NCBI GenBank assembly: GCA_002705265.1
Contig: PAHR01000030.1
Span: 1 to 36,224, forward strand
Direction: 5' to 3'
Source of the DNA: Pelagibacteraceae bacterium
GTDB taxonomy: Bacteria > Pseudomonadota > Alphaproteobacteria > HIMB59
Length of the DNA stretch: 36,224 nucleotides
Shown here: positions 553-28,607 of the stretch, in pieces
Position numbering within the stretch: position 1 is the stretch's first letter
Layout of the letters: each line of letters opens with the position of its first letter
Program-made: the position numbers and the translations under genes
Notes under the pieces: model-generated
The model's input: the letters and a program-made list of their open reading frames with translations, nothing else
Told to the model about the DNA's origin: nothing
Databases searched by the model: none

Positions 553-573
553 TTGTTTCATATTATGAAACAA
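553..573. promoter_or_regulatory. Perfect inverted repeat, putative operator between soxB/mgdA and tmm
   Basis: Arms TTGTTTCAT and ATGAAACAA (9 bp each) are separated by ATT. This is the strongest of four sites in the window that fit TTTCA-N5-TGAAA (others at 9309, 29671 and 35021). Its place in the divergent promoter region suggests control of one or both genes. The regulator is not encoded here. The dyad also satisfies the loose T-N11-A pattern of LysR-type regulators, but the family is not determined. Confidence 0.6.
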
Positions 574-2305: not shown

Positions 2306-2324
2306 GTAATTAAAAATTAATTAC
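2306..2324. repeat. AT-rich inverted repeat at the 3' end of tdm
   Basis: Arms GTAATTAA and TTAATTAC flank AAA and overlap the tdm stop codon. The stem has little GC, so it would be a weak terminator at best. It may be chance in such AT-rich sequence. Confidence 0.25.
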
Positions 2325-4666
2325 GATCTTACTCTAGATTTATCTGGATCATAAAATGGAAATCTTACTACTTTTGCTTTAATTCTTTTTTGATGACCAT
2401 CTAGTTTTCCAATTTCAACTTCAGTATCTATAGTGGAATAATTAATATCAATTTTACAAAGTGCGATCATTTTTTTTAAAGTTGGAGATTTCATGCCGCT
2501 AGTAATTATTCCTATTTGACTCCTACCTCCAACTTCATGAACACAATCACCATGGCCACAAAGTTCGTTGCCTTCAATTTCAAGACCTACAAGAGTTCTC
2601 TGAGGGTTGGCTTTTCTTTTAATTAAATTTTCTTTTCCGATAAAATTATCTTCCTTTGATTTTAAAGGTACAGTAAAACCTATACCTGCTTCAAATGGAT
2701 CAGTTTGATCATCAAATTCATAATTAGCAAAAATTAAACCAGCTTCAATTCTAACTAAATCTAAAGCATCCAAACCCATAGGAGTTATTTGAAATTCTTC
2801 ACCTGCTTTAATAACAGCTTCCCATACCTCAACAGCATGTCTTGGGTGACAAAAAATTTCATAACCAAGTTCCCCTGTATAACCTGTTCTTGAAACCATA
2901 ATTGGAATTCCATTTAACTCATTTAAATTACCTATTGTAAATCTAAACCAACCTAGGTCTTCTAATGTAGTTTGATGTGCGGGTGTCCATGTAATTTTTT
3001 TTAAAATTTCTCTACTCTTAGGTCCTTGAACAGATACATTATGAAGGTTATCGGTGGAAGACTTAATCCAAACTTTTAAATTAAATTCTTTTGCTTTTTC
3101 CCTTAACCATTCACCGCAATATTCATCACCACATATCCATCTAAAGTTAGTATCAGTCATTTTAAATACGGTTCCGTCATCAACCATACCTCCATGCTCA
3201 TAACACATAGCGGTATAAACAACTTGTCCAACAGCCAGTTTCCTAATATTTCTTGTACAAGTTCTTTGCATTAGTTCTTCAGCATCTGGTCCAAGTATTT
3301 CGAATTTTCTTAGAGCGGATAAATCCATAATTATTGCTCTCTCTCGACAAGCTTCATATTCTTGAAGGGCACCATTATTATTATATTTTGTAGCAAGCCA
3401 AAAACCTTTATAGTCAATTATATTTTCAGTTAACTTTGAAACACAAGGGTGAAATCCAGTTTCTTTTGTTAATTTTGGTTCTGAATCAGGCTTCATTCTA
3501 AAGACCCCTCCTTTACTGTAAGGTTTATTTGGTCGATAAATTCTAACAAACATATCTGTACAATTCCATCCATTTGCTGCATCAATATCATCTGGGCAAG
3601 CAGAAGAAACACATACTAAATTCTTTAATGCTTTAAACATAATATAATCGCCCGGTCTTGAAAAAGGTTCATCAAATATTATCGAATTGCTACTATCAAT
3701 AGCTGTATTATAAAATAAATTCACAGCATTCCATCCTAATCGCTTTCTTATAGGGTAATTTTCTAAAGCATAATTAAAATTATCAGAGCAATTTGGATGT
3801 CCAAAATAACCATGGTCATCATAAAACTTAGATGAGCAAGCAATTCCGTATGTATCATGACGACCTACCGTATCTCTTATAACCTCAACCAAAGGATCAT
3901 GATTTTCAGTAAAATATTTTGAATGAAGACCTGGGTTTGAAGATCCTCCCATTATGTATCTGGAATTAGTGGTATCTATTACAGCTTCTTTTCCTTTTTG
4001 TAATTGATTTGCATCAAAAGCAGTAAAATCAGAACACTGTCTTCCATAAATATCTATTATTTGAATATAGTCTCCTTCTTGAACTTCATAGGAATTAGCT
4101 GTTTGTCTTTTAATGAATATTTCTTGAACTGGATCTCCTAGAGGATCAGGGAGTATATATTCTCCTTCTTTTCTATCTTTAATTCTTTCAACAATAACTC
4201 TCAAGTCTGTTGCTGGAATACCTTGACTAATTATATCTTCTTCACCAGGAGCAGAAATAATACAAATACAATTAGAATTGGAAGTAAATTTTTCAATAGA
4301 GTCAATTCTAGCTTCATCAGAAAAAACCAAAATAGATTCTTTAATAGCATTAATATCAATTTTATGTTTTTTTAATTTTAAACGAACCATAGTCGCTGAT
4401 TCATTATCTTTACTTAAAATTGATTTTGTCAAAAATCCATTATGCTCTTTTTTTAAACCTAAAGGGGATAGATCATTCTTTCCATTTTCCAAAAAACATA
4501 CTATTTCTGCTTTTTGATAACCTTCAAGATTTAAAATATGAAATTTATCTCCACTAAATAATTTAATTGCTATAGAACCATTACCTGTAACTGAATATTG
4601 TTCTTGATTATTTGCTAAAGCTGGAAGTCCCGGTTCATAAGGCCTAGAGATTGAAGGAATAATCAT
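2321..4666 (-). CDS. tdm: Trimethylamine N-oxide demethylase
   Basis: Converts TMAO to dimethylamine and formaldehyde, with the formaldehyde thought to be passed to tetrahydrofolate. The 781-residue length and two-part architecture fit Tdm: an N-terminal/middle DUF1989-type zinc region (about 1-380) and a C-terminal GcvT-like folate-binding half (about 400-781). Cysteines 277, 293 and 357 have the spacing I recall for the zinc ligands of the characterised enzyme; other conserved blocks are IYGRQCSDFTAFD near 206 and RTGYTGELGYEIF in the GcvT half. GcvT or DmdA alone would be half this size and lack the first domain. It is the last gene of the minus-strand run tmoX-tmoW-tmoV-smr-tdm, 30 bp after the SMR gene. 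No frameshift or missing motif is apparent. Confidence 0.93.
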   Translation of the reverse strand: MIIPSISRPYEPGLPALANNQEQYSVTGNGSIAIKLFSGDKFHILNLEGYQKAEIVCFLENGKNDLSPLGLKKEHNGFLTKSILSKDNESATMVRLKLKKHKIDINAIKESILVFSDEARIDSIEKFTSNSNCICIISAPGEEDIISQGIPATDLRVIVERIKDRKEGEYILPDPLGDPVQEIFIKRQTANSYEVQEGDYIQIIDIYGRQCSDFTAFDANQLQKGKEAVIDTTNSRYIMGGSSNPGLHSKYFTENHDPLVEVIRDTVGRHDTYGIACSSKFYDDHGYFGHPNCSDNFNYALENYPIRKRLGWNAVNLFYNTAIDSSNSIIFDEPFSRPGDYIMFKALKNLVCVSSACPDDIDAANGWNCTDMFVRIYRPNKPYSKGGVFRMKPDSEPKLTKETGFHPCVSKLTENIIDYKGFWLATKYNNNGALQEYEACRERAIIMDLSALRKFEILGPDAEELMQRTCTRNIRKLAVGQVVYTAMCYEHGGMVDDGTVFKMTDTNFRWICGDEYCGEWLREKAKEFNLKVWIKSSTDNLHNVSVQGPKSREILKKITWTPAHQTTLEDLGWFRFTIGNLNELNGIPIMVSRTGYTGELGYEIFCHPRHAVEVWEAVIKAGEEFQITPMGLDALDLVRIEAGLIFANYEFDDQTDPFEAGIGFTVPLKSKEDNFIGKENLIKRKANPQRTLVGLEIEGNELCGHGDCVHEVGGRSQIGIITSGMKSPTLKKMIALCKIDINYSTIDTEVEIGKLDGHQKRIKAKVVRFPFYDPDKSRVRS

Positions 4667-4696: not shown

Positions 4697-5029
4697 TCAT
4701 GCAGATATTTTTGAAAAAATGTTTAAAATTACCACACCTATTATAATTAAGAATAAACCTAAAATTCCAGCAAAGTCCATTTGTTCTTTAAAATAAAAAA
4801 TTCCTATTAAAGTTAATAGCACAATTCCTAAAGCTGACCAAATTGCATATACATATCCTATTGAGGTAAAATATTTTAAAGAAAGTGATAAAAAATAAAA
4901 ACAAACCATATATGAAAATACAGTTAAAATACTTGGTTTAAGTAAAGTAAAGCCCTCTGATGCCTTTAGGGAAGCGGTACCAATAACTTCAAATGCTATT
5001 GCTAAGACAAGGTAAATATATTTAAGCAT
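4697..5029 (-). CDS. Small multidrug resistance (EmrE/Qac-type) transporter
   Basis: Inner-membrane proton antiporter of 110 residues with four predicted membrane helices. The essential membrane glutamate is present at E14 (AIAFEVIGTASLK), and the helix-3 signature YAIWSALGIVLL matches EmrE. EmrE-type members export quaternary ammonium and other lipophilic cations. It sits between the TMAO permease gene (8 bp away) and tdm (30 bp away), so it is almost certainly co-transcribed with TMAO catabolism. A role in moving a methylated amine, for example exporting excess dimethylamine or trimethylamine, is an inference from position; a SugE-like guanidinium exporter is less likely given the EmrE-like motifs. 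Confidence 0.85.
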   Translation of the reverse strand: MLKYIYLVLAIAFEVIGTASLKASEGFTLLKPSILTVFSYMVCFYFLSLSLKYFTSIGYVYAIWSALGIVLLTLIGIFYFKEQMDFAGILGLFLIIIGVVILNIFSKISA

Positions 5030-5037
5030 TTAAAGTA

Positions 5038-7095
5038 TCAATCAATACCTAATAATTTTTTTTGTTTTTCTGACCAAGTACGAATTAAATGATCAACTGC
5101 TAAACAAATAAAAGATACGAAAATACCTAGTGTTAAAGCTACTCCAGCTCCATCATTTCTTGATAAAGAACCCATAATAATTTGACCTAGATCTTCAGTT
5201 CCAATTAAAGCACCTAGCACTATCATAAATAAAGAAAAAATAAGTGTTTGATTAATTCCAAGCATAATATGTGGGAAAGCTAAAGGAATTTCAATTGTAG
5301 TCCATCTTTGTAAACGAGAAACACCTGACATTGATGCTGCTTCATGAAGAGAGACGGGAACGCTTTTTAAACCTTCTATTGTGTATCTAGTAGAAGGAAT
5401 TGTTGCATAGATAATAGCAGCTAATAGCACTGAAGTGTCTGTTATACCAAATAATAAAATAACAGGTATAAGATAAACGAAAGAAGGGAAAGTTTGAAAA
5501 AAATCACATATGAATAACATAAATTTTGTTGCTTTTTCACTTTGAGCACTTAATGACCCTACTACTAATCCTATAATAGTTGAAATTACAACAGCAAATG
5601 TTGCCATGTACATTGTAATTAAAGCTCTATCCCAATATTCAGAAAGAGCTATAAATAAAATTAACGGTCCTACTGTAAAAGCAGATCTTAAACCACCAAT
5701 TATATATCCAGTCCCCATGAATAAAATGAAAGTAGAAATTACTGGCATAGCTAAATAAGCTGTCTTCATCGGAAGTAAAACATTGCTTATCAAAAATATA
5801 TTAAAAGCATTCAAATAATAAAAAAAAGTTTCCCAAACCCAATCAACAAAGGCATCTAATAATGGCGATATACTAAAACCCCTCTCATAAGGAATTATAT
5901 ATAAATAATTAATTTCATTAAAATAATTACCTGCATAAAAAGCTATTATAGATCCAATCAATAATAAGATAGAAAAAATAATCAAATATTTATTTTTTTG
6001 AAAAAAACTTAAGTTAGCAAAGTAATTTTTTTGCTTATTTGCCCATGCCAAAGAAAATTTATCTAAAACTACCGCAATAATTACAATACAGATTCCAATT
6101 TCTGCTGCTTTACCAATTTTTAATGAATTTAATGCTAATTTAAGATTAAAACCTAATCCTTTTGCTCCAATAAAAGAAGCTATAACAGTCATAGCAAGGC
6201 ATTGCATAATTACTTGATTTACTCCAATTAATATATCTGTTCTTGCAGTTGGGATTAAAACTTTAAATAATAATTGAAATTTATTGCAACCACTCATCAA
6301 ACCTGACTCAACTACTTCTGGGGAAATTTTTCTTAAACCTAGAATAGTTAAACGAACCATTGGTGGAGTAGCAAAAACAATAGTAGCAATAGCTCCAGCA
6401 TGATCACCGATTCCAAATAAAACCATTACTGGTATAAGAAAAGAAAAATGTGGCATCGTTTGAGCGACATTTAAGATTGGCTGTAAAGCTGCTTCAACTT
6501 TTTTATCTAAATAACCCCATATGCCTAAACTAAGTCCAAATAAAAAACAAATTGGTGCTGTTATTAATACAAAAGACAGGGTTTGCATTGATGGAGCCCA
6601 TTGTCCAAAAATTGATAAATAACAAACTCCTATTCCTGCAAGTAATGCTAAACGAATACCTTGAAGTTGAAACCCTAAGATCATAGCTCCAGATACAACT
6701 ACTGTCCAAGGAAGTGCTGGCCAAGTAAACCATTTATTTGAATTCAGCCATGAGTCACTAATAAATGAACCTAAAGTTTGAACTCCACCTAATAGAATTT
6801 CTCTTACAAAGGTTATAAGAAATAATACTGAAGCAGAAATAGCTCTAGTAACTTCTCTAAAAGCTGCTTTTTTTTCATACATTTCAAAAACTGGATCCCA
6901 AACTTTTATAGGAAACCAATCATATAGAGCACTATAAATTGTATTATTAATCCAAAGTGGGAAGTCTTTAAATAGAGGCGGGAGCCTCCATAGTAAATTG
7001 CTTTCAGATTTAGGAACTAAGAAATAGAAAATTAAAAAAACAAGAAAAAGAATACCAAACTGTAATGGTTTGGATTTCTTTAATTTTTCCTTCAT
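5038..7095 (-). CDS. tmoV: TMAO ABC transporter, fused double permease
   Basis: Membrane component of a betaine-class (ProW-like) ABC importer. At 685 residues it is about twice the length of a single ProW permease and contains two complete permease modules, each with its own cytoplasmic coupling (EAA) loop: GLMSGCNKFQLLFKVLIP in the first half and AASMSGVSRLQRWTTIEIP in the second. Each half also begins with an extra hydrophobic region before the transport domain. The position between the ATPase gene (10 bp) and smr-tdm, and the fused architecture, fit TmoV of the TMAO importer TmoXWV rather than a glycine betaine system. Choline or betaine uptake remains possible without an assay. Confidence 0.85.
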   Translation of the reverse strand: MKEKLKKSKPLQFGILFLVFLIFYFLVPKSESNLLWRLPPLFKDFPLWINNTIYSALYDWFPIKVWDPVFEMYEKKAAFREVTRAISASVLFLITFVREILLGGVQTLGSFISDSWLNSNKWFTWPALPWTVVVSGAMILGFQLQGIRLALLAGIGVCYLSIFGQWAPSMQTLSFVLITAPICFLFGLSLGIWGYLDKKVEAALQPILNVAQTMPHFSFLIPVMVLFGIGDHAGAIATIVFATPPMVRLTILGLRKISPEVVESGLMSGCNKFQLLFKVLIPTARTDILIGVNQVIMQCLAMTVIASFIGAKGLGFNLKLALNSLKIGKAAEIGICIVIIAVVLDKFSLAWANKQKNYFANLSFFQKNKYLIIFSILLLIGSIIAFYAGNYFNEINYLYIIPYERGFSISPLLDAFVDWVWETFFYYLNAFNIFLISNVLLPMKTAYLAMPVISTFILFMGTGYIIGGLRSAFTVGPLILFIALSEYWDRALITMYMATFAVVISTIIGLVVGSLSAQSEKATKFMLFICDFFQTFPSFVYLIPVILLFGITDTSVLLAAIIYATIPSTRYTIEGLKSVPVSLHEAASMSGVSRLQRWTTIEIPLAFPHIMLGINQTLIFSLFMIVLGALIGTEDLGQIIMGSLSRNDGAGVALTLGIFVSFICLAVDHLIRTWSEKQKKLLGID

Positions 7096-7105
7096 TTATG
7101 TTTGA

Positions 7106-8137
7106 TTAGTCGCCAAATAGAACTTTAATAACTTTAGAAGGATTAAGTGATCCTACAACCTTATTCTCTTTTGGATCTATAACATTAAGGGTTTCTTTGC
7201 TATTAAGAATAACCTCAGCTACTTTTTCGATTATATCATTTTTTGAAACGTTAGAATTATTAGAAATATTCGGATCAACTGGATCCATTATTGATTCAAT
7301 TTTTAAAACCTTTTCTCTTGGTACATCTTCTGTAAATTTTTTGACATAATCTGTAGCTGGATTTAAAACAATATTATCTGGGGTGTCTAATTGCTCAATA
7401 ATACCATCTTTCATAATTGCTATTCTATCAGCCAAACGAAGAGCTTCATCAAAATCATGAGTTACAAACATTATTGTTTTATTTAAAACTCCTTGTAATC
7501 TTAAAAATTCATCCTGCATTTCTTTTCTAATCAAAGGATCTAGTGCAGAAAAAGGTTCGTCTAAAAACCAAATATCTGGTTCGACTGCAAGTGAACGTGC
7601 AATACCGACTCTTTGTTGCTGACCACCTGAGAGTTCTCTTGGAAAATAATTTTCTCTGCCTTTTAACCCTACAAGCTCAACCATCTCTAATGCTTTATTC
7701 ATACTATCAGTTGTGTTATTTCCCTTAACTTGTAAAGGAAAGGCAATATTTTCTATAACTGTTTTATGAGGGAGTAAGGCAAAATTTTGGAAAACCATGC
7801 CCATTTTATTTCTTCTAAGCTCTATAAGCTGTTTGCTATTCATTGCGTTAAGATCTTCACCATCTATATAAATTTTTCCAGAAGTTGACTCACCTAGTCT
7901 TGATATACATCTTAATAAAGTAGATTTACCTGAACCTGAAAGACCCATAACAACTAACATTTCACCTTTATGTACTTCAAAAGAAGCATTGTTAACTCCT
8001 ACTATACAACCCGCATCTTGAAATTTTTTAGCATCAACAGCACCTTCTGTGTTCTCTAATAATTTTTTTGCATTGGTTCCAAAAATTTTATAAACAGATT
8101 CACATTTAATTACTGGATTATTTGAACTATTTTGCAT
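7106..8137 (-). CDS. tmoW: TMAO ABC transporter, ATP-binding protein
   Basis: Energises TMAO import. The 343-residue protein has the ProV-type N-terminal extension (about 1-50), Walker A GLSGSGKST, the ABC signature LSGGQQQRVGIARSL, Walker B DIWFLDEP with the D-loop SALDP, and the H-loop VTHDFDEALRLAD. The C-terminal ~60 residues after FTEDVPREKVL are shorter and more divergent than the paired CBS domains of ProV, so osmotic gating like that of ProU/OpuA is doubtful. It lies between tmoX and tmoV. A strong terminator hairpin separates it from tmoX, so its transcript level is probably lower than that of the binding protein. No Shine-Dalgarno is visible before the ATG at 8137. Confidence 0.87.
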   Translation of the reverse strand: MQNSSNNPVIKCESVYKIFGTNAKKLLENTEGAVDAKKFQDAGCIVGVNNASFEVHKGEMLVVMGLSGSGKSTLLRCISRLGESTSGKIYIDGEDLNAMNSKQLIELRRNKMGMVFQNFALLPHKTVIENIAFPLQVKGNNTTDSMNKALEMVELVGLKGRENYFPRELSGGQQQRVGIARSLAVEPDIWFLDEPFSALDPLIRKEMQDEFLRLQGVLNKTIMFVTHDFDEALRLADRIAIMKDGIIEQLDTPDNIVLNPATDYVKKFTEDVPREKVLKIESIMDPVDPNISNNSNVSKNDIIEKVAEVILNSKETLNVIDPKENKVVGSLNPSKVIKVLFGD

Positions 8138-8168: not shown

Positions 8169-8201
8169 ATAAAAAAATCCCCCCTCAAATAAGGGGGGAT
8201 T
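8169..8201 (-). terminator. Intrinsic terminator/attenuator between tmoX and tmoW
   Basis: Minus-strand RNA would form a 10-bp GC-rich stem (AATCCCCCCT paired with AGGGGGGATT, hairpin 8176-8201) followed by a U run. It lies directly after the tmoX stop and before tmoW. The usual effect of this layout is high expression of the binding protein and partial read-through into ATPase and permease. Confidence 0.85.
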
Positions 8202-8225: not shown

Positions 8226-9188
8226 TTATTTCAACCACTCGTCTACATCGCCTCTAAAGTCTGCAATAAATTGTGAAGCTGCATCAGCATGAGTCATACC
8301 GCCATTATCAACGTAGTTGGCCATATTACCGATGTGAGTTGCATTAGCTTCAAATTTAGTTAAGAACTTATAAGCACTTGTGTGAGTGATAGGTAACTTA
8401 ATATGAGCTGCTTTCTTTAACCAACCAACTGGTGAACCACAACCTGTTGTGTCTACAGAACCACCATCTTCAAGTCTACATCCTTGAAAGAATGGAGGGA
8501 ACTCTATGAAAGTGAATCCTTCTGCGTCAGTGAAGTTTGGTGTCCAGTTAAATATAACTGTTCCACGACCTTCTTTTTTAGCAGCAGCTAATTCTGCCCA
8601 AAGAGCATCTGCACTACCTGCAAATTTAACCGTCCAAGTATCATCAAGACCTAGTCCTTTTAATCTATTAGGCATAACATCTGTATGCCATTCATAAGGT
8701 CCTTCTAACCAACGGCCTTTTCCTTCTGAATCAGCAGTTGCAAAATTCTTTTGACACTCTTCAGATTTTAAAGCTTCCCAACTTGGTAGACCTGGACAAA
8801 GGTTTTGTTCAATAACCCAGTTAGGCACTCCCATATCTTCTAATGTAGGTGCTGCATGACTACCTGCATCAATTAAACCACCTTTATCCATAGCTTCATA
8901 CATTGGCTTAGCCATTGTTGACTGCCATGTTTCATGAGCAATATGTAAATCACCTGTTCTAATAGCTTCATATCTTGAAGCAGATTCTGCTGGCACTAAC
9001 TCAACATTATAACCCTGCTCTTCAAAAACTTGAGCTAAAACGTTAGCCATAACAACCTGACTTGACCAGTTTAAAACTGGAATTCTAATTGGATCTGAGC
9101 TATCAGCTTTCGCAATATTTGTTAAACAAGTTAAAGCGATTACTATAGAAGCTAAAAAACCAAATAGTTTGTTTCTTAATATTGACAT
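8226..9188 (-). CDS. tmoX: TMAO ABC transporter, periplasmic substrate-binding protein
   Basis: Secreted binding protein of the OpuAC/ProX type that captures TMAO. I place the start at 9188 because AGGAGG lies 4 bases upstream and the next residues form a signal peptide (hydrophobic GFLASIVIALTCLTNI, cleavage after AKA); an ATG 51 bases further upstream lacks these supports. The mature protein of about 295 residues is rich in tryptophans that could form the aromatic cage for a quaternary amine (NWSS, HETWQ, GPYEWHTD, NWTPNF), and it has acidic residues near them, as expected for TMAO-binding members. It heads the operon tmoX-W-V-smr-tdm. Its leader contains a terminator-like hairpin immediately before the Shine-Dalgarno, and a dyad motif lies farther upstream. 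Confidence 0.87.
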   Translation of the reverse strand: MSILRNKLFGFLASIVIALTCLTNIAKADSSDPIRIPVLNWSSQVVMANVLAQVFEEQGYNVELVPAESASRYEAIRTGDLHIAHETWQSTMAKPMYEAMDKGGLIDAGSHAAPTLEDMGVPNWVIEQNLCPGLPSWEALKSEECQKNFATADSEGKGRWLEGPYEWHTDVMPNRLKGLGLDDTWTVKFAGSADALWAELAAAKKEGRGTVIFNWTPNFTDAEGFTFIEFPPFFQGCRLEDGGSVDTTGCGSPVGWLKKAAHIKLPITHTSAYKFLTKFEANATHIGNMANYVDNGGMTHADAASQFIADFRGDVDEWLK

Positions 9189-9198
9189 ATGTCCTCCT

Positions 9199-9233
9199 AA
9201 AAAAAACAAAGCAATACTGTCTATATTGCTTTG
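9199..9233 (-). promoter_or_regulatory. Terminator-like hairpin in the tmoX leader (candidate attenuator)
   Basis: On the minus strand CAAAGCAATA and TATTGCTTTG form a perfect 10-bp stem with a 7-base loop (9207-9233), followed at once by eight T (9199-9206) and then the tmoX AGGAGG. The arrangement is that of an intrinsic terminator inside the 5' leader. A TATAAT box at 9273-9278 would start transcription near 9266, leaving ~33 bases upstream of the stem for an antiterminating structure or bound factor. No known riboswitch class is recognised. Confidence 0.65.
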
Positions 9234-9308
9234 ATGCACTTAAATAAATTAAGTACACTTATTCCTGATACTATTATATAAAGTTAAATCTAAGCTGGAA
9301 GACCAATA

Positions 9309-9323
9309 TTTCAGAATATGAAA
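9309..9323. promoter_or_regulatory. TTTCA-N5-TGAAA site between tmoX and alr
   Basis: TTTCAGAATATGAAA fits the dyad seen at 553-573, 29671 and 35021, here with 5-bp arms only. Its centre is about 50 bases upstream of the predicted tmoX start of transcription, a position suitable for an activator. It overlaps the ATG of alr on the other strand. It is the weakest of the four sites. Confidence 0.4.
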
Positions 9324-10433
9324 CAATTTCTTAAAAAAAATAAATATAAAATCAACAAAACTATTGAAAATAATATGTTTTATGTAAATCATGGTAATTT
9401 AATCCACAATTATAAACTAATTCAAAAACTTTGTAATAATTCTAAAATCATTGGAGTAGTTAAAGGAAATGCTTATGGGCATGGTATGGTTGAGTGTACA
9501 AAATCACTTTCAAAAGCTGGCTGTAATGATTTTTATGTTGCAAATATAGATGATGCTTTAGTATTAAGAAAAAAATTCCAAAAAATTCAAATTTATGTAC
9601 TTTCTGGGCCAATTACAATCAATGATGTAAAAACTTTGCAAGATAATAAAATTGTAATCATAGTAAATAATTTTGAACAATTAAATTTAGTTAATAATTT
9701 TTGTCATTCTACTAACAAAAGAATTGATGTTGTCTTGAAATTAGATACCGGAATGAACCGATTAGGATTTAAAATAGAAGACTTTTATAAAATAAAGCCA
9801 CTAAGCAAAAATATAAATTTAAAATTTTTAATGAGTCACTTTACTTCTGCTGACGCAATGGATGTAAAATCTTGTAATTTACAACTTAAAAAACTTTTGA
9901 TTTCAAATAAAATTCTTAATGCAAAATTAAGTATTGCTAATTCTTCGGGTTGTTTTTTAAGAAAAAAATATCACTTAAACTTTGTAAGACCAGGTAAAAG
10001 TTTATATGGCATGAATCCTTTTTACAAAAAAACATATAAATTAAAACAAGTAGCTTCTTTTTATTCTCCAATTATACAAACTTCTTTTGTAAAAAAAGGT
10101 GATACTGTAGGATACGAAAAAACTTTTAAAGCTAAAAAAAATCTTAAAACCGCTACAATTAATATTGGTTATGCCAATGGCATATTAAGGAAAGCTAGTA
10201 ATCGTATAGTTACTTATATAAATGATTTTCCCGCAAAAGCTTTAGGAAGAATTTCAATGGATTTAATTACAATTGATATTTCGAAAGTGCCAGAAAAATT
10301 TATACGATTAGGTCAGCCTGTTGAAATTCTTGGTAAAAACGCAACTTACGAACAAATTTCAAATGCAATGGAAACGAATGAACATGAAGCTTTAATTTCC
10401 ATTGGATCAAAAAATGAAAAAACACATATATAA
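9318..10433 (+). CDS. alr: Alanine racemase
   Basis: PLP enzyme that interconverts L- and D-alanine for peptidoglycan. The 371-residue length is typical. The PLP lysine is K49 in VVKGNAYGHG (usually VVKANAYGHG), the fold-type III barrel carries KLDTGMNRLGF, and the C-terminal domain has the conserved GYANGILR region with the second catalytic tyrosine and GRISMDLITID. The first ~20 residues (lysine-rich) precede the usual start of the family and may be a short extension or reflect a later start; a methionine at residue 20 is the alternative. It is divergent from tmoX with only 129 bp between the starts. No functional link with TMAO uptake is evident. Confidence 0.9.
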   Translation: MKQFLKKNKYKINKTIENNMFYVNHGNLIHNYKLIQKLCNNSKIIGVVKGNAYGHGMVECTKSLSKAGCNDFYVANIDDALVLRKKFQKIQIYVLSGPITINDVKTLQDNKIVIIVNNFEQLNLVNNFCHSTNKRIDVVLKLDTGMNRLGFKIEDFYKIKPLSKNINLKFLMSHFTSADAMDVKSCNLQLKKLLISNKILNAKLSIANSSGCFLRKKYHLNFVRPGKSLYGMNPFYKKTYKLKQVASFYSPIIQTSFVKKGDTVGYEKTFKAKKNLKTATINIGYANGILRKASNRIVTYINDFPAKALGRISMDLITIDISKVPEKFIRLGQPVEILGKNATYEQISNAMETNEHEALISIGSKNEKTHI

Positions 10434-14927: not shown

Positions 14928-14949
14928 CCTTAAAACGCTCGGTAGGTGT

Positions 14950-15036
14950 ATTTTACTTCCTACGCCGGCATTATCCGGTTCAGGTTCTAGGGTTAAGTTT
15001 AATTAACTTTCTCAGCTTTTGAGCACCCCTGTTTTA
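14950..15036 (-). promoter_or_regulatory. TPP riboswitch (THI element) upstream of thiBPQ
   Basis: The minus strand carries the hallmark blocks of the aptamer in order: ACAGGGGTGC, GCTGAGA, an ACCCT block, GAACCTGA, CCGGATAATGCCGGCG and GTAGGAAG. All conserved bases of the pyrimidine- and pyrophosphate-sensor arms seem present. It should turn thiBPQ off when thiamine pyrophosphate is abundant. Confidence 0.95.
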
Positions 15037-15084
15037 AGAAATTATATCTTATTCAATTTAAATATCAATTTTCTTTACTATTGG

Positions 15085-20128: not shown

Positions 20129-20416
20129 ATGAATAAAGATAACACTATTAAACTAAATGCTATTAGAAAAAAAATTGACTCAATTGATGATAAAATTTTA
20201 AAATTAGTTTCTAAAAGATTTAAAGAAATTCACAAAGTAGCTGCTTTAAAAGATAATTCTGATCAAATAGTTGATAATAAAAGAATTAAAAAAATACTTA
20301 CAAAAATTAAGTCAAAAGCTAAAAAAGAAAAATTGGATAACGATTTTGCTGTAAGATTATGGCAATTATTTATTCAAGAAGCTATTCGCATGGAATATTC
20401 TAAAATTAAAAATTAA
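20129..20416 (+). CDS. Chorismate mutase, AroQ class
   Basis: All-helical enzyme of 95 residues that converts chorismate to prephenate for phenylalanine/tyrosine synthesis. The N-terminal LNAIRKKIDSIDDKILKLVSKRF pattern gives the arginine and Asp/Ile spacing of the first AroQ helix. The following K (HKVAALK) and a C-terminal WQLFIQEAIRMEY helix complete the active site. It is a stand-alone domain, without a fused prephenate dehydratase. The 3' end overlaps nhaD by 11 bp (convergent). Confidence 0.85.
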   Translation: MNKDNTIKLNAIRKKIDSIDDKILKLVSKRFKEIHKVAALKDNSDQIVDNKRIKKILTKIKSKAKKEKLDNDFAVRLWQLFIQEAIRMEYSKIKN

Positions 20417-21722
20417 TTAAAATATGTGCATATATGCTTGCGGCATAACCTAAAGCTATTACAGGAGTCCACTTTAAATGGCCAAAAAAAGTATATTGAC
20501 CTCTTGCTTGACCCATTAAAGCAACTCCAGCTGCTGAGCCAATAGATAACATACTCCCACCTACTCCTGCTGTAAGAGTAACTAGCAACCATTGTGAATC
20601 TGGCATTGGTGGGTTCATTGTTAGTACAGCAAACATTACTGGTATATTATCAACAATAGCTGATAAAATTCCTACTAAAACATTTGCCCATGTTGCTCCT
20701 AACTCTACATACATAAAATTATTGATCATTGATAAGTATCCAATAAAACCTAATCCACCAACACTAAGAATTACACCAAAGAAGAATAACAAAGTATCCC
20801 ATTCTGCCTTAGAGACTTTTCTTAAAATATCAAATTTTTCAGGTGCATCTAATTCACTATTACCATGAGTTATTTTAAGATAGTAAGCAAACAAAGAAAG
20901 ATATCCAAAACCAAGCATCATTCCCATCATAGGAGGTAAGGTTAAAAAATTATGAAAGCTGACAGCTGTAGCTATTGTAAGAATAAACAACACCATAACA
21001 GTTACAGCCCCTCTTCTCATTACGACTTTTTCACCTGAAGATTTTGGTTTTTCGTTTGGAACAAAAAAATACATTATAACTGCTGGCACTACATAATTAA
21101 CAACAGACGGTATGAAGATTGCAAAGAATTCAAAGAAACCAAGTATTCCTTTTTGCCAAACCATTAGAGTAGTAATATCTCCAAAAGGTGAGAAAGCTCC
21201 ACCTGCATTAGCTGCAACAACAATATTAACACATCCTATGGAAATAAATTTACTATTGTCTTTTCCTACTGCTAAAAGAACAGCACATAAAACCAGTGCT
21301 GTAGTTAAGTTATCTGCAATTGGCGACAAAAAGAAAGCAATTATACCTGTAATTAAAAATAATTGCCTATAAGTGAAACCTTTACTAGTTAACCAAGATC
21401 TTAGTGCATTAAACACATCTCTATTATCTAGGGAATTAATATATGTCATAGCTACAAGTAAGAATAAAAATAATTCAGCATATTCTAAAACTCCATGTCT
21501 AAGAGCTGCTTCAACTGCATGAGACATTTCTTTGTCACCAATAAATTGCGATGCTATTAAGGCCCATATAATTCCAGCAGATATAATCACAGGCTTTGAC
21601 TTTCTTAAGTGGGTAATTTCTTCAGCCATAACAAATGCATAGGCAACAACAAACACAATGACACTTGCTATACCAACAGTGCTAGTAGTTAAATTAACTG
21701 CAATATCCGCCGAAGCTGCCAT
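20406..21722 (-). CDS. nhaD: Na+/H+ antiporter NhaD
   Basis: Inner-membrane sodium/proton antiporter of the ion-transporter superfamily, 438 residues and about twelve helices. Typical motifs are the AEEITHLRKSKPV loop after helix 1, SPIADNLTTALVLC, AANAGGAFSPFGDITTLMVW and, in the second half, VDNIPVMFAVL with LSIGSAAGVALMG. The gene starts 1 bp after the formyl-hydrolase-like gene and so belongs to the ThDP lyase-frc operon. Co-transcription with a carboxylate pathway may mean it resets the sodium or proton gradient during carboxylate uptake or decarboxylation (inference). Confidence 0.92.
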   Translation of the reverse strand: MAASADIAVNLTTSTVGIASVIVFVVAYAFVMAEEITHLRKSKPVIISAGIIWALIASQFIGDKEMSHAVEAALRHGVLEYAELFLFLLVAMTYINSLDNRDVFNALRSWLTSKGFTYRQLFLITGIIAFFLSPIADNLTTALVLCAVLLAVGKDNSKFISIGCVNIVVAANAGGAFSPFGDITTLMVWQKGILGFFEFFAIFIPSVVNYVVPAVIMYFFVPNEKPKSSGEKVVMRRGAVTVMVLFILTIATAVSFHNFLTLPPMMGMMLGFGYLSLFAYYLKITHGNSELDAPEKFDILRKVSKAEWDTLLFFFGVILSVGGLGFIGYLSMINNFMYVELGATWANVLVGILSAIVDNIPVMFAVLTMNPPMPDSQWLLVTLTAGVGGSMLSIGSAAGVALMGQARGQYTFFGHLKWTPVIALGYAASIYAHILINF

Positions 21723-21723
21723 T

Positions 21724-22644
21724 TTAGCTAAATAAATCCCCTTCAGTAAAAACTGCTGTGTTCATATCTTTGACATAAAGCTTACCTTGATCTTTAGACT
21801 TAAACCTAGTTACAATTAAAAAACCACCTTTTACAGCAATTTTTACATTCTCTTCATTAATTTCCATAATTTGACCTGGAAAATGCTCTGCTGACTGTTC
21901 TTCAGAGAATTTAGTATCTAAAAATACATATTCTTCATCCATAAATTCAGCCCAAGCTCCAGGTTGTGGGTTAGATGCTCTTATTAAATTATAAACTTCT
22001 TTACCTGGTTTTTTCCAATCTATTCTAGCTATATCTTTTTTAAACCAGGATTCGTAGGTTGCCTTTGTTTCATCTTGTTTAATTCTAGGTGCATTTCCTT
22101 CATTTAATAAATTTGCTGATTCAATACAAGCATCAACACCTAAGGGAAAAATTTTATTAAAATAAATATCTCCTAAAGTTTCATCATCACCAATATCAAC
22201 TTCCTTTTGAAGAAGAATATCACCTTCATCCAATCCATCATTTGGATAAAAAATAGTTAATCCAGTTTTTTTCGAACCTAAAGATATAGGCCAATTGATT
22301 GAACTTGGACCCCTATGTAAAGGTAAAAGAGATGGATGAAAACAAATTGATCCATGCTGAGGTATATCTCTAGCTTCCTCAGGAACAAAAATAGTCACAT
22401 ATGCCATTACACATAAGTCTGAATTATGACTTCTCATTTGATCTAAAACTTCTTTATCTTTAAAATTAGAAGGTTGAAAAACAGGTAAGTTTTCATTTAA
22501 AGCATATTCTTTAACTGGGTCTAATGGTTTTCCTTCTTTATCTGGAGCACAATAAACAGCTACAATTTCATGATCTGTTTCTTTGTAGAATTTTTCTAAA
22601 GTGCTTTTTCCAAAAGCTTGCTGTCCCATTAATATAATTTTCAT
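21724..22644 (-). CDS. 10-formyltetrahydrofolate hydrolase/formyltransferase-like protein
   Basis: 306 residues resembling the N-terminal hydrolase domain of 10-formyl-THF dehydrogenase (ALDH1L1) more than methionyl-tRNA formyltransferase: HGSICFHPSLLPLHRGPSS, SINWPISLG, KKTGLTIFYPNDGLDEGD and LLQKEVDI align well from memory. Catalytic His103 and Asp139 are in place. The position of the catalytic asparagine of tRNA formyltransferase is Cys101 here, as another residue replaces it in ALDH1L1. A C-terminal Fmt-like barrel (about 205-306) follows. No aldehyde dehydrogenase domain is fused. Its operon partners make and transfer formyl-CoA, so a role in moving or hydrolysing a formyl group is likely; the exact reaction is unknown. 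Confidence 0.75.
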   Translation of the reverse strand: MKIILMGQQAFGKSTLEKFYKETDHEIVAVYCAPDKEGKPLDPVKEYALNENLPVFQPSNFKDKEVLDQMRSHNSDLCVMAYVTIFVPEEARDIPQHGSICFHPSLLPLHRGPSSINWPISLGSKKTGLTIFYPNDGLDEGDILLQKEVDIGDDETLGDIYFNKIFPLGVDACIESANLLNEGNAPRIKQDETKATYESWFKKDIARIDWKKPGKEVYNLIRASNPQPGAWAEFMDEEYVFLDTKFSEEQSAEHFPGQIMEINEENVKIAVKGGFLIVTRFKSKDQGKLYVKDMNTAVFTEGDLFS

Positions 22645-22669
22645 GAATTATCTTTTATATGATTCTTAT

Positions 22670-23917
22670 CTAAATTGCACCTGAATCTCGAAGGGATTTT
22701 ATTTCTTCATCACTCATATTACAAAATTCCTTAATAACCTCTTCTGTGTGTTCTCCAAGCAAAGGAGATCTTTTAACAACTGCAGGTGAATCAGAGAGTT
22801 TTATAGGATTGCCAACAGTAAGATACTTTCCTCTTTCTGGATGATCTACTTCTACAATTGTCCCAGTTTCTCTTAAACTTTGTTCATTAGCGAGTTCTTT
22901 CATAGAAAGAATTGGTCCGACAGGTATATTAAGAGGATTACAGATGTCCATAACTTCAAATTTTGTTTTGGTCATAGTCCATGCTTCAATTGTTTCAAAA
23001 ATCTCATTTAAATGAGGCAATCTAGCTTCAGGTGTTAAAAATTTTTCATCCTCAATCCATTCAGGTTTTCCAATAACCTCGCATATATTTTTCCAAACAG
23101 CTGCTTGAGTAATAAAATAAGTATAAGCATCCGGATCTGTGTCCCATCCTTTACATTTTAAAATTCTACCAGGTTGACCACCTCCTGAATCATTGCCAGC
23201 TCTAGGAGTTGCTTCTCCAAAAGGAATTCCTTGACCAAACTGTGAATATTCTTTTAATGGACCGTGAGATAAACGCTGTTGATCACGAAGTTTAACTCTA
23301 CAAAGATTTAAAACCCCATCTTGCATTGCAGCACTTACTCTTTGTCCTTTACCTGATTTTTCTCTGTGAAATAGAGCTGTAACTATTCCTAATGCTAAAT
23401 GAAGTCCTGTACCACTGTCACCTATTTGCGCTCCAGTAACTGTTGGTACCTCACCTAACATACCAGTTGTAGATGCAGAACCACCTGCACACTGAGCGAC
23501 ATTTTCATATACTTTGCAATCTTCATAAGCACCAGGTCCAAAACCTTTTACTGAAGCATAAATCATTCGTGGATTAATTTCTTGAATTTTTTCCCAACTA
23601 AAACCCATACGATCTAATGCTCCTGGAGCAAAATTTTCTACCATAACATCACACTGCTCTATAAGTGATGTAAAAATTTTCGCTCCATCTGGGTTTTTAG
23701 GATTAAGAGTAATGCTTCTTTTATTAGAATTAAGCATAGTAAAATATAAACTATCTGCTTTTGGTACATCTCTTAGTTGTCCTCTAGTAGCATCTCCTAC
23801 TCCTGGTCTCTCAACTTTTACAACATCAGCACCAAACCACGCTAATAATTGCGTGCACGTCGGACCTGACTGTACATGAGTCATATCTAAAATTTTTACA
23901 CCTTTTAAAGCTTCCAT
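22670..23917 (-). CDS. frc: Formyl-CoA:oxalate CoA-transferase (class III CoA-transferase)
   Basis: Moves CoA between carboxylates, classically formyl-CoA + oxalate to formate + oxalyl-CoA. The 415-residue protein follows Oxalobacter Frc closely as I recall it: [56 protein letters not shown], the catalytic Asp167 in [27 protein letters not shown], the glycine loop GGGQPGR and [16 protein letters not shown]. This is a specific match and not a generic family III enzyme. It follows the ThDP lyase by 20 bp and precedes the formyl-hydrolase-like gene by 25 bp. The acceptor acid in vivo may be oxalate or another small carboxylate. Confidence 0.9.
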
Positions 23918-23937
23918 TTACTAACCTCCTGAAAACA

Positions 23938-25614
23938 TCACTTATACATAGTTTGATTTTTAGTACCTGGAGCAAACTCTTCTTTATCAACCCATATATT
24001 TACTAGAGCTGGAGTTCCTGACTTAACAGCTTCTCTTGCTCTTTGAAGTGCTGGCTGAATGTCTTTTGCCTCTCTAACACACTCACCGTGACCTCCTAGT
24101 ACTTTAGCGAATTCATCGAAATTAACATCTCCTAGTATGTTACCTACATTTCCTTTTTCTTCCCCATATTTCATAATTTGCCCAAACCTAATTTGATTTT
24201 GAGCAGAGTTATTACCAACTACAGTTAAAACTGGAAGTTTATGTCTAACAAAAGCTTCAAAATCCATACCTGTCATTGAAAATGCACCATCACCACAATA
24301 TAAGAGAATTTCACTTTCAGGTGATGATTGTTTAGCTGCCAAAGCATAAGGAACTCCAACTCCTAGTGTTCCGAGTGGACCTGGATCCATCCAACCACCT
24401 GGTCTTTTTGGTTGAACAGCTTGAGCACTAATTGTTACCACATCTCCTCCATCACCTATATAAATAGTATCTTCATTTAAAAACTGATTTAACTCCCAAG
24501 CAACTCTATAAGGGCTTATTGGAGATTTGTCAGTTGTAAATGTTGGCATAAGTTTTTCTAACGCACTTTCTTCCCCTGTTCTTAATTCTTTAAACCAATC
24601 TGTTCTGTCACTTTTACTACCTGCATCTGCTATTGCTGACAAGGTTCTGCCTATATGACCAACTAAACCTAAAGATATATCTCTATTTTTACCAACTGTT
24701 CTATAATCCATATCAATTTGAATTACTGTAGCTTTTGGATTTAAACGCTTTCCATAGCCCATTCTAAAATCAAAAGGAGTGCCAACTATTATTATACAAT
24801 CAGACTTTGTAAAAGCATTTCTTCTTGTTCTATGAAAATGATGTGGATCTCCTGGTGGTAATGTACCTCTAGCTGCCCCATTAAGATAAGCTGGGATATT
24901 CATTTTTCTTACGAATTCAACTGCTTCTTTATTTGATTGGCATGTCCAAACCTGCTGACCTAAAAGAATACAAGGTCTCTCTGATTTTGAAATTATGTCA
25001 GCTGCTTTTTGAATGTCTTCCGGATCAGCTAATGTCTTTGATGAAGCACTATATTTTCCAGGTTGAGGTAAAACAGCTTTACTTAATGGAATTGATGTAT
25101 CTAGAACATCTCTAGGTATTTCTAAAAAAGCAGGTCCGTAAGAACCGTTTCTTGTTTCCCTAAATGCCATAGAAACCATATCAGCACATCTTTCGGTAGA
25201 CATAACTGTTGCAGCAAATTTTGTAATTGGTTGCATCATATCTACGTGAGGTAAATCCTGAAGTGAACCCATTTTATGTTGAGTTAAAGAACTTTGTCCT
25301 CCAATAAGCAGCATTGGTATTTCAGCTCTAAAGGCATTTGCAACACCAGTTATAGCATGAGTAGTGCCAGGGCCTGCTGTAACTACAGCACAACCTGGTT
25401 TTCCAGTCATTCTAGAATAACCATCTGCAGCATGGGAAGCCACTTCTTCATGTCTTACATCTATAATTTTTATTCCTTCGTTCAAACAACCGTTATAGAT
25501 ATCTATTATATGACCTCCACATAAAGTATAGATCACTTCAATTCCTTCGGCTTTAAGCGCCTTTGCAACTAGTTCACCACCAGTTACCATTTGTTCATTT
25601 GATGCTGTAGTCAT
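23938..25614 (-). CDS. ThDP-dependent lyase, 2-hydroxyacyl-CoA lyase/oxalyl-CoA decarboxylase type
   Basis: 558 residues with the three-domain fold of acetolactate-synthase-like enzymes: N-terminal pyrimidine domain with catalytic Glu56 (VRHEEVASHAADGY), a central domain (about 200-340), and a C-terminal diphosphate domain with GDGAFSMTGMDFEAFVRH and VGNNS. The opening IYTLCGGHIIDIYNG and the GGQSSLTQHKMGSLQDLP region look most like 2-hydroxyacyl-CoA lyases (HACL2/ILVBL type). The Tyr-Glu pair of Oxalobacter oxalyl-CoA decarboxylase that I recall near residue 120 is not evident. No ilvN-like small subunit is nearby. With frc next in the operon, the product is probably formyl-CoA plus CO2 or an aldehyde. 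The start has GAGGAG upstream and an operator-like dyad just before it. Confidence 0.8.
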   Translation of the reverse strand: MTTASNEQMVTGGELVAKALKAEGIEVIYTLCGGHIIDIYNGCLNEGIKIIDVRHEEVASHAADGYSRMTGKPGCAVVTAGPGTTHAITGVANAFRAEIPMLLIGGQSSLTQHKMGSLQDLPHVDMMQPITKFAATVMSTERCADMVSMAFRETRNGSYGPAFLEIPRDVLDTSIPLSKAVLPQPGKYSASSKTLADPEDIQKAADIISKSERPCILLGQQVWTCQSNKEAVEFVRKMNIPAYLNGAARGTLPPGDPHHFHRTRRNAFTKSDCIIIVGTPFDFRMGYGKRLNPKATVIQIDMDYRTVGKNRDISLGLVGHIGRTLSAIADAGSKSDRTDWFKELRTGEESALEKLMPTFTTDKSPISPYRVAWELNQFLNEDTIYIGDGGDVVTISAQAVQPKRPGGWMDPGPLGTLGVGVPYALAAKQSSPESEILLYCGDGAFSMTGMDFEAFVRHKLPVLTVVGNNSAQNQIRFGQIMKYGEEKGNVGNILGDVNFDEFAKVLGGHGECVREAKDIQPALQRAREAVKSGTPALVNIWVDKEEFAPGTKNQTMYK

Positions 25615-25630
25615 TAGTTATGCTCCTCGT

Positions 25631-25666
25631 GGTATATTGTATACCAATAATAGTATAAAAAATCAA
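25631..25666 (-). promoter_or_regulatory. Promoter with overlapping dyad, candidate GntR operator for the ThDP lyase operon
   Basis: Minus strand: TTGATT (25661-25666), a 17-base spacer, then TATACA (25638-25643) preceded by TGG, an extended -10. The dyad GGTATACAATATACC (25631-25645) overlaps the -10 and start site, with 6-bp perfect arms. Its 13-base core is identical to that of the site before qor. This layout suits a repressor, probably the GntR protein encoded just upstream. Confidence 0.65.
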
Positions 25667-25675
25667 ATGGTTTTG

Positions 25676-26335
25676 CTATTTTCTAAGCTTTTCTTCAATT
25701 CTTTTAACTAAACCTAATGCATGATTTCTTAAAGTTTTTTCAGCCCTTGTAGCATTACCAGATAACAGAGATTTTATAATTTCATCATGCTCATCAATTG
25801 ACTTAATAGCCCTTTTAGATTCAATTATAAATTTTTTTCTTAAAAACTGTAAATGCAACAGTTGTGACTCTAAGATATGAGACATAAGATCAACTTTTGT
25901 AAGTTTCATAATAAATTGATGAAATAAAATATTATCACGAGAGTAGTTTTCTAGCTCTGATAAAACATTTTCTTTTTTATACTGGCAAAATTTTTCTAAT
26001 TTTTTAATTTCTTCTTGTGTAGAATTTTTAATAATTAAATGAGCTGCGTAACCCTCCAAACCAGCCCAAACAGATACAATTTCAATTAAGTCTTTTTTTG
26101 TTTTACGGTTAACAAAAACTCCACGTCGAGGTATTGTTTTTACAATGCCTTCTTGTTCTAATCTAGCAATTGCTTCACGAATTGGTGTCCTACTTACACC
26201 AAGTTTAAGTGATAATTGTCTTTCATCTAAATGAAAATCTGTTTCTTTTAAATATATATTAAGGGATATTATATATTTTTTTAAACTATCATATACTTTA
26301 CCTTTAAGATTCACTGTTCCTATTCTTTGAATCAT
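25676..26335 (-). CDS. GntR-family regulator, FadR/FCD subfamily
   Basis: 219 residues. The N-terminal winged helix-turn-helix is clear (LDERQLSLKLGVSRTPIREAIARLEQEG, then the wing VKTIPRRGVFV). The C-terminal all-helical FCD effector domain carries an Asn/His metal-site pattern (RDNILFHQFI, EHDEIIKSLL, RNHALGL). Family members sense small carboxylates or acyl-CoAs and bind dyads of the TTGTATACAA kind. Two such dyads occur in the window, before the ThDP lyase gene and before qor. It lies 8 bp after tctA and 61 bp before the ThDP lyase gene, so it is likely made with the tct genes and controls the catabolic genes. The ligand is unknown. Confidence 0.9.
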   Translation of the reverse strand: MIQRIGTVNLKGKVYDSLKKYIISLNIYLKETDFHLDERQLSLKLGVSRTPIREAIARLEQEGIVKTIPRRGVFVNRKTKKDLIEIVSVWAGLEGYAAHLIIKNSTQEEIKKLEKFCQYKKENVLSELENYSRDNILFHQFIMKLTKVDLMSHILESQLLHLQFLRKKFIIESKRAIKSIDEHDEIIKSLLSGNATRAEKTLRNHALGLVKRIEEKLRK

Positions 26336-26343
26336 TATTAGTA

Positions 26344-27864
26344 TTAAGCAGACTTAGCTTTGAAAAATTTTCTTTTTATAGGACCAGCTAAAGGCATGAG
26401 TAAAAACACAAGAGCTATATACATAATGGATGCAGCAATTGGCTTTTCCCCAAAATCAAAAAATATACCCATACTACCATCTGATAATATAAGTGTTTGT
26501 CTTAAGGCATTTTCTGCAAGAGGTCCTAAAACAATTGACAGAACAGCTGGAGCTACAGGGTAATCTAGTTTTCTTAAGACATAACCAACAAAACCGAAAA
26601 TTAACATCAACCATACGTCATGTAAACTTTGCGTAGGTGCATAACCACCCGTTACACATAGAACAAATATTACAGGTGCTAAAATCGCAAAAGGTATTCT
26701 AAGGACCATTAAAAAAGCAGGAATCAAAGCTATATTTAAAACTAAAGTAAAGAAGTTAGCTATATAAAGACTGCCAATTAATCCCCACACAAATTCTGGT
26801 TCTTGAGTAAATAAAAGAGGTCCAGGTGTTAATCCCCATAATATCATCCCTCCAAGTAATATTGCTGTTGTCGGAGATCCTGGTATTCCTAAAGTAAGCA
26901 TAGGCAACATACTCCCAGTACTAGCAGAATTATTAGCGCACTCTGGTGCTACAACACCAGCTGGAACTCCAGTTCCAAACTCTTTAGAATTCTTTGAAAG
27001 CTGTTTTGTAATTCCATATGACATTAAAGAAGCTGGAGTTGCTCCAGCGGCAGGAAGAATACCAACAAAGAAACCTAAAAAAGAACCTATAGACATGGCC
27101 ATAAGAGTAGATTTTAATTTTTTAAATGCCTTTCCTATCTCATTCATATTTACTTCCATTTTAGCCATTTGAACTTTTCCTTTAGTTGATTCTAAAGTCC
27201 AAAGCATTTCTCCTATTCCATAAATTCCAATAGCAAGTACTAAAAAGTTAATACCGTGTAAAAACCCTGGCATACCAAATAAAATTAATCTAGGTTTGCC
27301 TGAAATAAGATCTAATCCAATAGTTGAAAGTAATAGTCCTATTAATATTGAAAATACTGTTTTAGGAATGTCGTCACCACCAAGACCAACAAAAGTAGCA
27401 AAGGCCATTACCATAAGAGCAAAGGTTTCAGGAGCATTAAAAGCAAGAGCTACCTCTGCTAGAGGTGGTGCAAACAATGTAAATAAAATAACAGAGACAG
27501 TTCCTCCAACAAAAGAACCTACTGCTGCAGCTGAAAGTGCTGTTATGGCATCTCCTTTTTGTGCCAAAGGCCTTCCATCGAAAACTGTAGCAACAGCCGT
27601 TGATGCGCCCGGTATACCTAACATAACAGAGCTTATTGCTCCTCCGTACATAGCTCCATAATAAACTGCTGCTAAAAAAATTATAGCTGCTGTTGGTGGT
27701 ACAATAAAAGTAATAGGTATAAGGATGGCAACACCATTAACTGATCCTAGACCAGGCATGGCACCAACGAACAAACCTACTAAACAACCAAATATTAAAA
27801 GACCTAAATTAAACCACTGCAGTGATGTAAAAATACCGTCTAGTAATAATCCAAAAGTTTCCAT
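26344..27864 (-). CDS. tctA: Tripartite tricarboxylate transporter, large membrane subunit
   Basis: 506-residue inner-membrane protein with about twelve helices, of the TctA family. The family glycine-rich blocks are present: GAMPGLGSVNG, YYGAMYGGAISSVMLGIPG, and in the second half GILPAAGATPASLMSYG with ANNSASTGSMLPMLTLGIPGSPTTAILLGGM. It forms the transport channel with TctB and uses TctC as the periplasmic receptor. The substrate is a carboxylate in known systems. Gap to tctB is 28 bp and to gntR 8 bp. Confidence 0.94.
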   Translation of the reverse strand: METFGLLLDGIFTSLQWFNLGLLIFGCLVGLFVGAMPGLGSVNGVAILIPITFIVPPTAAIIFLAAVYYGAMYGGAISSVMLGIPGASTAVATVFDGRPLAQKGDAITALSAAAVGSFVGGTVSVILFTLFAPPLAEVALAFNAPETFALMVMAFATFVGLGGDDIPKTVFSILIGLLLSTIGLDLISGKPRLILFGMPGFLHGINFLVLAIGIYGIGEMLWTLESTKGKVQMAKMEVNMNEIGKAFKKLKSTLMAMSIGSFLGFFVGILPAAGATPASLMSYGITKQLSKNSKEFGTGVPAGVVAPECANNSASTGSMLPMLTLGIPGSPTTAILLGGMILWGLTPGPLLFTQEPEFVWGLIGSLYIANFFTLVLNIALIPAFLMVLRIPFAILAPVIFVLCVTGGYAPTQSLHDVWLMLIFGFVGYVLRKLDYPVAPAVLSIVLGPLAENALRQTLILSDGSMGIFFDFGEKPIAASIMYIALVFLLMPLAGPIKRKFFKAKSA

Positions 27865-27892
27865 ATTTTTTTTACCTATTCTCTCTCATTAA

Positions 27893-28510: not shown

Positions 28511-28564
28511 TATTATATTTTTTAGTAACCTCCGTCGCTATTTTAAAAATTAATTCAAAAATTA

Positions 28565-28590
28565 TAGAGTGAGGATTAAACCTCACTCTA
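28565..28590 (-). terminator. Stem-loop between tctC and tctB
   Basis: TAGAGTGAGG pairs perfectly with CCTCACTCTA across six bases, followed on the minus strand by ATAATTTTT. It resembles a leaky terminator or 3' stabiliser that would favour the binding protein over the membrane subunits, as at the tmoX-tmoW junction. Confidence 0.65.
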
Positions 28591-28607
28591 AAAATTATAA
28601 TTTAATA

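Follow-up and report, generated by a model that had tools for sequence, protein, structure and literature searches.

Based on the comparisons reported here, we conclude that a conserved palindrome upstream of the predicted tmoX promoter is a better candidate for the control of tmoX than the terminator-like hairpin in the leader of the same gene. The gene is the first of the tmo operon, which lies on the minus strand of the window (the whole stretch of DNA analysed, 36,224 nt). The leader hairpin is real and, as far as its sequence goes, looks like an intrinsic transcription terminator. Judged in the same way, tmoX would be controlled mainly at initiation by an IclR-family protein, whose binding to the palindrome we infer. 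Initiation under IclR control, combined with the hairpin acting as an always-on partial terminator, is the best explanation overall, and we hold it with about even confidence.

The source genome is a draft of 54 contigs, 87.7% complete, and the G+C content of the window is 30%. The features discussed are collected in Table 1. The small multidrug-resistance (SMR) gene inside the operon may encode an amine exporter. Alanine racemase (alr) is the divergent neighbour of tmoX; the first ATG of its frame, at 9318, is overlapped by the operator candidate, and a later in-frame ATG near 9375 may be the true start. The window also holds a TPP riboswitch (14940-15040, 61.7 bits) upstream of thiamine-ABC-transporter-like genes, which is ordinary.

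Table 1. Positions of the genes, predicted promoter elements, RNA hairpins and operator-like sites considered in this study (window coordinates unless a stretch is named).
Feature	Position	Strand	Basis or context
Perfect operator GTTTCATATTATGAAAC	555-571	.	Between a presumed sarcosine-oxidase-like gene (named from its sequence) and tmm
tmm, TMA monooxygenase	654-1994	plus	NF058570 above cut-off; beyond the tmo operon
TMAO demethylase	2321-4666	minus	NF053776 above cut-off
SMR family gene	4697-5029	minus	Between tmoW and the TMAO demethylase gene
tmoW, two-domain permease	5038-7095	minus	
tmoV	7106-8137	minus	
Hairpin after tmoX, before tmoV (AATCCCCCC..GGGGGGATT, T run)	8176-8201	minus	Conserved
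tmoX, OpuAC-type substrate-binding protein of TMAO ABC transporter	8226-9188	minus	Operon context with TMAO demethylase
tmoX ATG	9188-9186	minus	
Shine-Dalgarno AGGAGG of tmoX	9193-9198	minus	Sequence read; starts directly after the U tract
U8 tract	9199-9206	minus	Sequence read
Second leader hairpin, terminator-like (CAAAGCAATA / loop TAGACAG / TATTGCTTTG)	9207-9233	minus	10 Watson-Crick pairs and a U.G
First leader hairpin (GTGTACTTAA/TTAAGTGCAT)	9234-9258	minus	Fold: 10 pairs, 5-nt loop
Predicted tmoX -10 element TATAAT	9273-9278	minus	Consensus match only
Predicted tmoX -35-like element CTTCCA	9296-9301	minus	CTTCAA at the same operator offset in several relatives
Operator candidate GTTTCATATTCTGAAAT (minus-strand reading)	9308-9324	.	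Matches RTTTCAN5TGAAAY; immediately upstream of the predicted -35 of tmoX
Operator-like site	29670-29686	.	Between genes taken to be TctC-like and quinone-oxidoreductase-like; the TctC-like gene heads an oxalate/formyl-CoA type cluster
Operator-like site	35020-35036	.	Upstream of BhcA-like glyoxylate aminotransferase gene (33800-34960)
IclR gene	L167, 1255-2019		

The original prediction described a perfect 10-bp stem followed by eight U immediately before the AGGAGG of tmoX, and the minus strand reads exactly so from 9233 to 9193. The stem contains 10 Watson-Crick pairs, or 11 when the inner U.G is counted with the loop AGACA, and folds alone at -11.0 kcal/mol. It would lie inside the tmoX leader given the predicted promoter, for which the start of transcription was guessed near 9266, giving a predicted leader of 78 nt. 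Relatives carry two TATAAT-like boxes, at offsets of about 47 and 64 from the operator, so the tmoX start could be placed differently. The AT-rich dyad ACTTAA/TTAAGT reported upstream of the stem is present and proved to be longer than stated: GUGUACUUAA and UUAAGUGCAU form a separate 10-pair hairpin (hairpin 1; -10.1 kcal/mol), not an alternative fold of its neighbour. Hairpin 1 abuts the terminator-like hairpin (hairpin 2) with zero linker and takes up 25 of the 33 nt that precede it in the predicted leader. There is little space for a sensor in this leader apart from hairpin 1.

A chance origin of hairpin 2 was ruled out by Markov-1 copies, dinucleotide shuffles and a scan of its own genome. 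For the leader's first 76 nt the folding energy is -21.8 kcal/mol, against a mean of -9.9 kcal/mol (sd 2.4) for 1000 dinucleotide shuffles, about 5 standard deviations below that mean and a value reached by none of the shuffles. Likewise, 60 Markov-1 copies of the window, scanned on both strands, contained no perfect 10-pair stem with at least 7 T. The 354,565 bases sampled from the same genome (20 stretches and the window; 27% of the genome) contain six terminator-like sites, among which hairpin 2 is the only one with a Shine-Dalgarno sequence and an ATG within 60 nt downstream; no other intergenic site among them combines a stem of at least 9 with 7 T in 8. Hairpin 2 is also among the two longest stems in a general hairpin scan of the first 18 kb, which returned 13 sites against 6.5 expected (sd 2.3). 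A stable hairpin with a U-rich tract at once after it is the form of an intrinsic terminator, and the score by a d'Aubenton-Carafa-type formula, in which values above 0 count, is 15.6. Only three of the ten stem pairs are G-C, so termination could be weak. A search of the genome for T6-AGGAGG before other genes gave three sites, two of which (L113 and L114) have no ATG at Shine-Dalgarno distance and look internal to coding sequence.

The same hairpin has no counterpart in related leaders. The gene tmoX was found in 42 of the 52 genomes of the genus, which constitutes the whole family as sampled, and we assembled 67 close leaders, 44 of them distinct, from the window, the genus (partly in duplicate) and eight other records (L049-L052 and L054-L057, L049 being Pelagibacterales/SAR11). 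A terminator-like hairpin between the promoter region and the start codon was present in one of the 44 distinct close leaders, that of the window itself; two other scan matches (L005 and L022) sit further upstream, one of them being the operator. None of 53 distant leaders showed such a hairpin within 130 nt of the tmoX start. The original prediction had named a lack of conservation of the stem in tmoX leaders of related strains as grounds for refutation, and the stem was absent from every relative examined, the two nearest leaders coming from genomes with TmoX identities of 85% and 83%. A DNA search with the leader across 162 genomes of the order recovered its own genome only, with no homologous leader in the other 161; the remaining matches had E values of 2e-4 or greater and covered 16-64 bases, mostly about 20. 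Neither the close leaders nor this search provided a homologous stem in which compensatory changes could be compared. The putative leader terminator is lineage-specific.

A second hairpin of the operon, located between tmoX and tmoV, behaves differently. It is present with at least 4 G-C pairs in all 32 distinct sequences including the window, and with at least 5 G-C pairs in 29 of the 32, as compared to 0 of 640 shuffles; the pairing is kept while the sequence varies. Because one hairpin is unconserved and the other is retained throughout, the two hairpins of the operon have opposite histories. Intergenic hairpins after substrate-binding-protein genes are an ordinary arrangement in ABC operons, where more binding protein than permease is made. 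The tmoX-tmoV hairpin fits this arrangement and probably fixes how much binding protein is made relative to transporter, in contrast to the unconserved hairpin of the leader.

The conserved element upstream of the predicted tmoX promoter is the palindrome GTTTCATATTATGAAAC. Its core, TTTCAN5TGAAA, was found with at most one mismatch in 24 of the 44 distinct tmoX leaders as compared to 3% of shuffles, and an intact half-site was found in 40 of the 44. The palindrome is thus kept at the same place in orthologous promoters. G008, whose TmoX (85%) is the most similar of all, is an exception, with no operator before tmoX. The G008 leader (L004) has a different perfect 10-bp inverted repeat, AGTTAACTTA/TAAGTTAACT, approximately 75-107 bases before the tmoX ATG. 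In a large group of genus members the site reads GTTTCATATTATGGATT, with a damaged right half-site, and no good operator site was found in the distant tmoX leaders (L058 and beyond). Relative to the ATG the operator lies at -82 to -95 in most leaders, at -136 in the window, which holds an extra 49 nt or so, and at -168 in G007, whose leader is long too but unrelated. These distances differ because the length of the leader differs; the spacing from the operator to CTTC(A/C)A and to the TATAAT-like box is nearly constant across relatives. In tmoX leaders of genus members (for instance L006, L014 and L021) we also observed a second, nearly invariant CTATTATAATAG right before the Shine-Dalgarno sequence; if this is a -10 box, the tmoX mRNA of those members would be almost leaderless.

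Five sites in the genome match RTTTCAN5TGAAAY. One falls within a reading frame (L202); the other four are intergenic, and the window contains all of them. The genome has a single IclR_C match, located between glutamate-synthase-like and sarcosine-oxidase-like genes, neighbours that from context we take to be mgs/mgd genes of the N-methylglutamate pathway. A site with at most one mismatch follows the IclR stop codon within 130 nt at 30 of 31 loci, the 31st being cut by a contig end, so that the palindrome stands beside the regulator's own gene at all 30 testable loci. These include the genome under study, where the site has one mismatch, and a SAR11-type genome (L201) whose IclR protein is 44% identical. 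Other genomes carry the site in the gap separating tmoX from tmm (L200), next to tmm (L187), next to the aminotransferase gene (L188) and, in L196, flanked by an ammonium-transporter gene and one resembling type III glutamine synthetase. In 4 of 20 stretches examined it is inside coding sequence (L189, L194, L202 and L203).

Two further observations concern the surroundings of such sites. The cluster at 20406-29582, with TctC/TctB/TctA-like, GntR-type, TPP-dependent decarboxylase-like, formyl-CoA transferase and formyltransferase-like genes (some labels tentative), looks like one for oxalate or formyl-CoA metabolism. In three relatives and a SAR11 genome, a GTTTCA-N5-TGAAA palindrome lies about 60 nt upstream of a bacteriorhodopsin-family gene (L191, L193, L195 and L199, near position 1000-1021 in each), and exact sites stand beside a second rhodopsin paralogue in G018 and G040. 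The rhodopsin-linked palindrome could tie a light-driven pump to the regulator of methylated amines.

Other owners of the palindrome were considered. The genome has four LysR (PF00126) matches, and their loci had neither an exact core match nor recognised methylamine neighbours; the IclR protein is therefore preferred. The best NCBIfam match of that protein is BhcR, at 111 bits against a cut-off of 350, a score far enough below the cut-off that the protein is not BhcR itself. PMC11323563 proposes that a palindrome ahead of the bhcA -35 may be a binding site for BhcR, which is the same geometry as that of the tmoX palindrome, and the BhcA-like gene in the window has an operator-like site. In contrast to BhcR, the inferred targets of the IclR protein in the window are methylated-amine genes.

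Regulators of the same role have been described from other protein families. According to the text available from PMC13390433, Ruegeria pomeroyi has two transcription factors, TmaR (AraC family) and TmoR (GntR family), that act at promoters to regulate TMA/TMAO catabolism, tmaR often adjoins the mgd operon, and Rhodobacterales, Hyphomicrobiales and Gammaproteobacteria are named for the spread of TmaR; that text does not link an IclR protein to TMA/TMAO control. Since these two proteins run TMA catabolism in Ruegeria, the IclR protein would be a different regulator. The open literature searched, including the accessible part of PMC2704228, yielded no account of an IclR regulon for methylated amines in SAR11 or in the group of the window.

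Together these results suggest the following model. Transcription of tmoX would begin at the predicted promoter just downstream of the palindrome, most likely the binding site of the one IclR-family protein found in the genome, and induction would take place at that site, at initiation. In this lineage the 5' UTR appears to have grown to about 78 nt, with two abutting hairpins. Polymerase would meet hairpin 2 and the U8 tract approximately 60 nt from the start, where a fraction of complexes probably stops; the rest would proceed into the Shine-Dalgarno sequence right after the U tract, and the surviving mRNA would receive a structured 5' end. Because neither a competing fold nor a conserved sensor was found, hairpin 2 is most likely an always-on partial terminator that would trim tmoX output, and nothing in the leader, whether in folds, Rfam or relatives, was found to confer TMAO dependence on the stopping fraction. 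Our search of the open literature returned no description of a tmoX leader terminator.

The layout had been read as a transcription attenuator, and specifically as a leader responsive to TMAO or amines. What stands of this reading is the terminator-like hairpin placed between the predicted promoter and the Shine-Dalgarno sequence; the antiterminator and the conserved sensor were not found. In folds of the growing transcript, hairpin 1 formed first and hairpin 2 next, each on its own and with no competing pairing, and the best pairing between the upstream leader and the 5' arm of the terminator is a 3-pair duplex of -3.2 kcal/mol. No Rfam family reached its gathering score at the leader, and we attributed four sub-threshold matches (plastid psbA 3' UTR twice, DapZ and a miRNA; E 0.02-0.4) to chance. 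A leader peptide was also rejected, as the GTG frame from 9258 and the in-frame GTG at 9239 run through the hairpin and neither resembles a regulatory peptide. As covered in the available part of a survey of premature terminators (PMC2965389), leaders of ABC-transporter operons are a known site of attenuators and resemble the tmoX leader in having a hairpin and U tract between predicted promoter and Shine-Dalgarno sequence; however, the ABC leaders drawn there each have an antiterminator and a conserved motif, neither of which was found for tmoX. The same part of the survey includes a rimP leader that has no antiterminator and for which a protein is suspected, so the lack of an antiterminator weakens the attenuator claim and leaves room for regulation by a protein. 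Considering also the restriction of the hairpin to one of the close leaders and to none of the distant ones, the few nucleotides before it that are not part of the plain 10-pair hairpin 1, and a conserved candidate regulator site already present at initiation, it is quite improbable that read-through responds to TMAO- or amine-linked small molecules or proteins. We also consider it unlikely that the hairpin is a young, species-level attenuator, a recent terminator in an operator-controlled transporter leader that would supplement an IclR regulon for methylated amines, in common with SAR11, with additional control by termination; polymerase speed, NusA or a protein binding hairpin 1 might mediate this.

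Constitutive partial termination or a structure at the 5' end of the mRNA is most likely for the leader hairpin. The chief alternative to our explanation is an effect on mRNA stability or translation. In that case the hairpins would barely terminate; they would shield the 5' end from decay, and the U8 tract would serve as a landing site for ribosomal protein S1 next to the Shine-Dalgarno sequence, raising TmoX. Two stable hairpins abut near the predicted 5' end, the U8 directly before a consensus Shine-Dalgarno sequence could equally serve translation, and substrate-binding proteins are usually made in excess. Yet relatives express tmoX without such an element, a hairpin with U8 is the exact form of a terminator and is rare in the sampled part of the genome, and folds that include coding sequence predict pairing of the U8 with codons near the start of tmoX. 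We regard this role as possible, at clearly less than even probability. The extra sequence missing from most relatives could instead mark a terminator imported from the end of another gene, or a small inverted-repeat element, with no role in the leader. A repeat or mobile origin was rejected: neither the genome itself nor the order yielded a convincing second copy or a source, no exact hairpin with these arms was found in viral contigs, and the long, unrelated leader of G007 suggests that long leaders may be a trait of this small clade and not the result of one insertion; an imported terminator is accordingly doubtful. Two hairpins ending in U8 also resemble the 3' end of a small RNA, and the terminated leader, about 67 nt long, could persist as a stable RNA with other mRNAs as its targets. 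An Hfq-dependent small RNA was rejected since no Hfq was found in the 87.7%-complete genome, and with the element absent from every relative examined, such an RNA is very improbable.

We thus favor IclR-controlled initiation at the palindrome with hairpin 2 as an always-on partial terminator. By comparison with relatives, a striking RNA feature of the tmo operon belongs to a single genome and is not conserved. For the two groups of ocean bacteria concerned, our search of the open literature yielded no regulator described for methylated-amine genes. The palindrome points to a testable switch at the level of a protein: it is linked to an IclR gene with methylamine-type genes for neighbours, and in both groups it is found again ahead of TMA, TMAO, glyoxylate and further genes.
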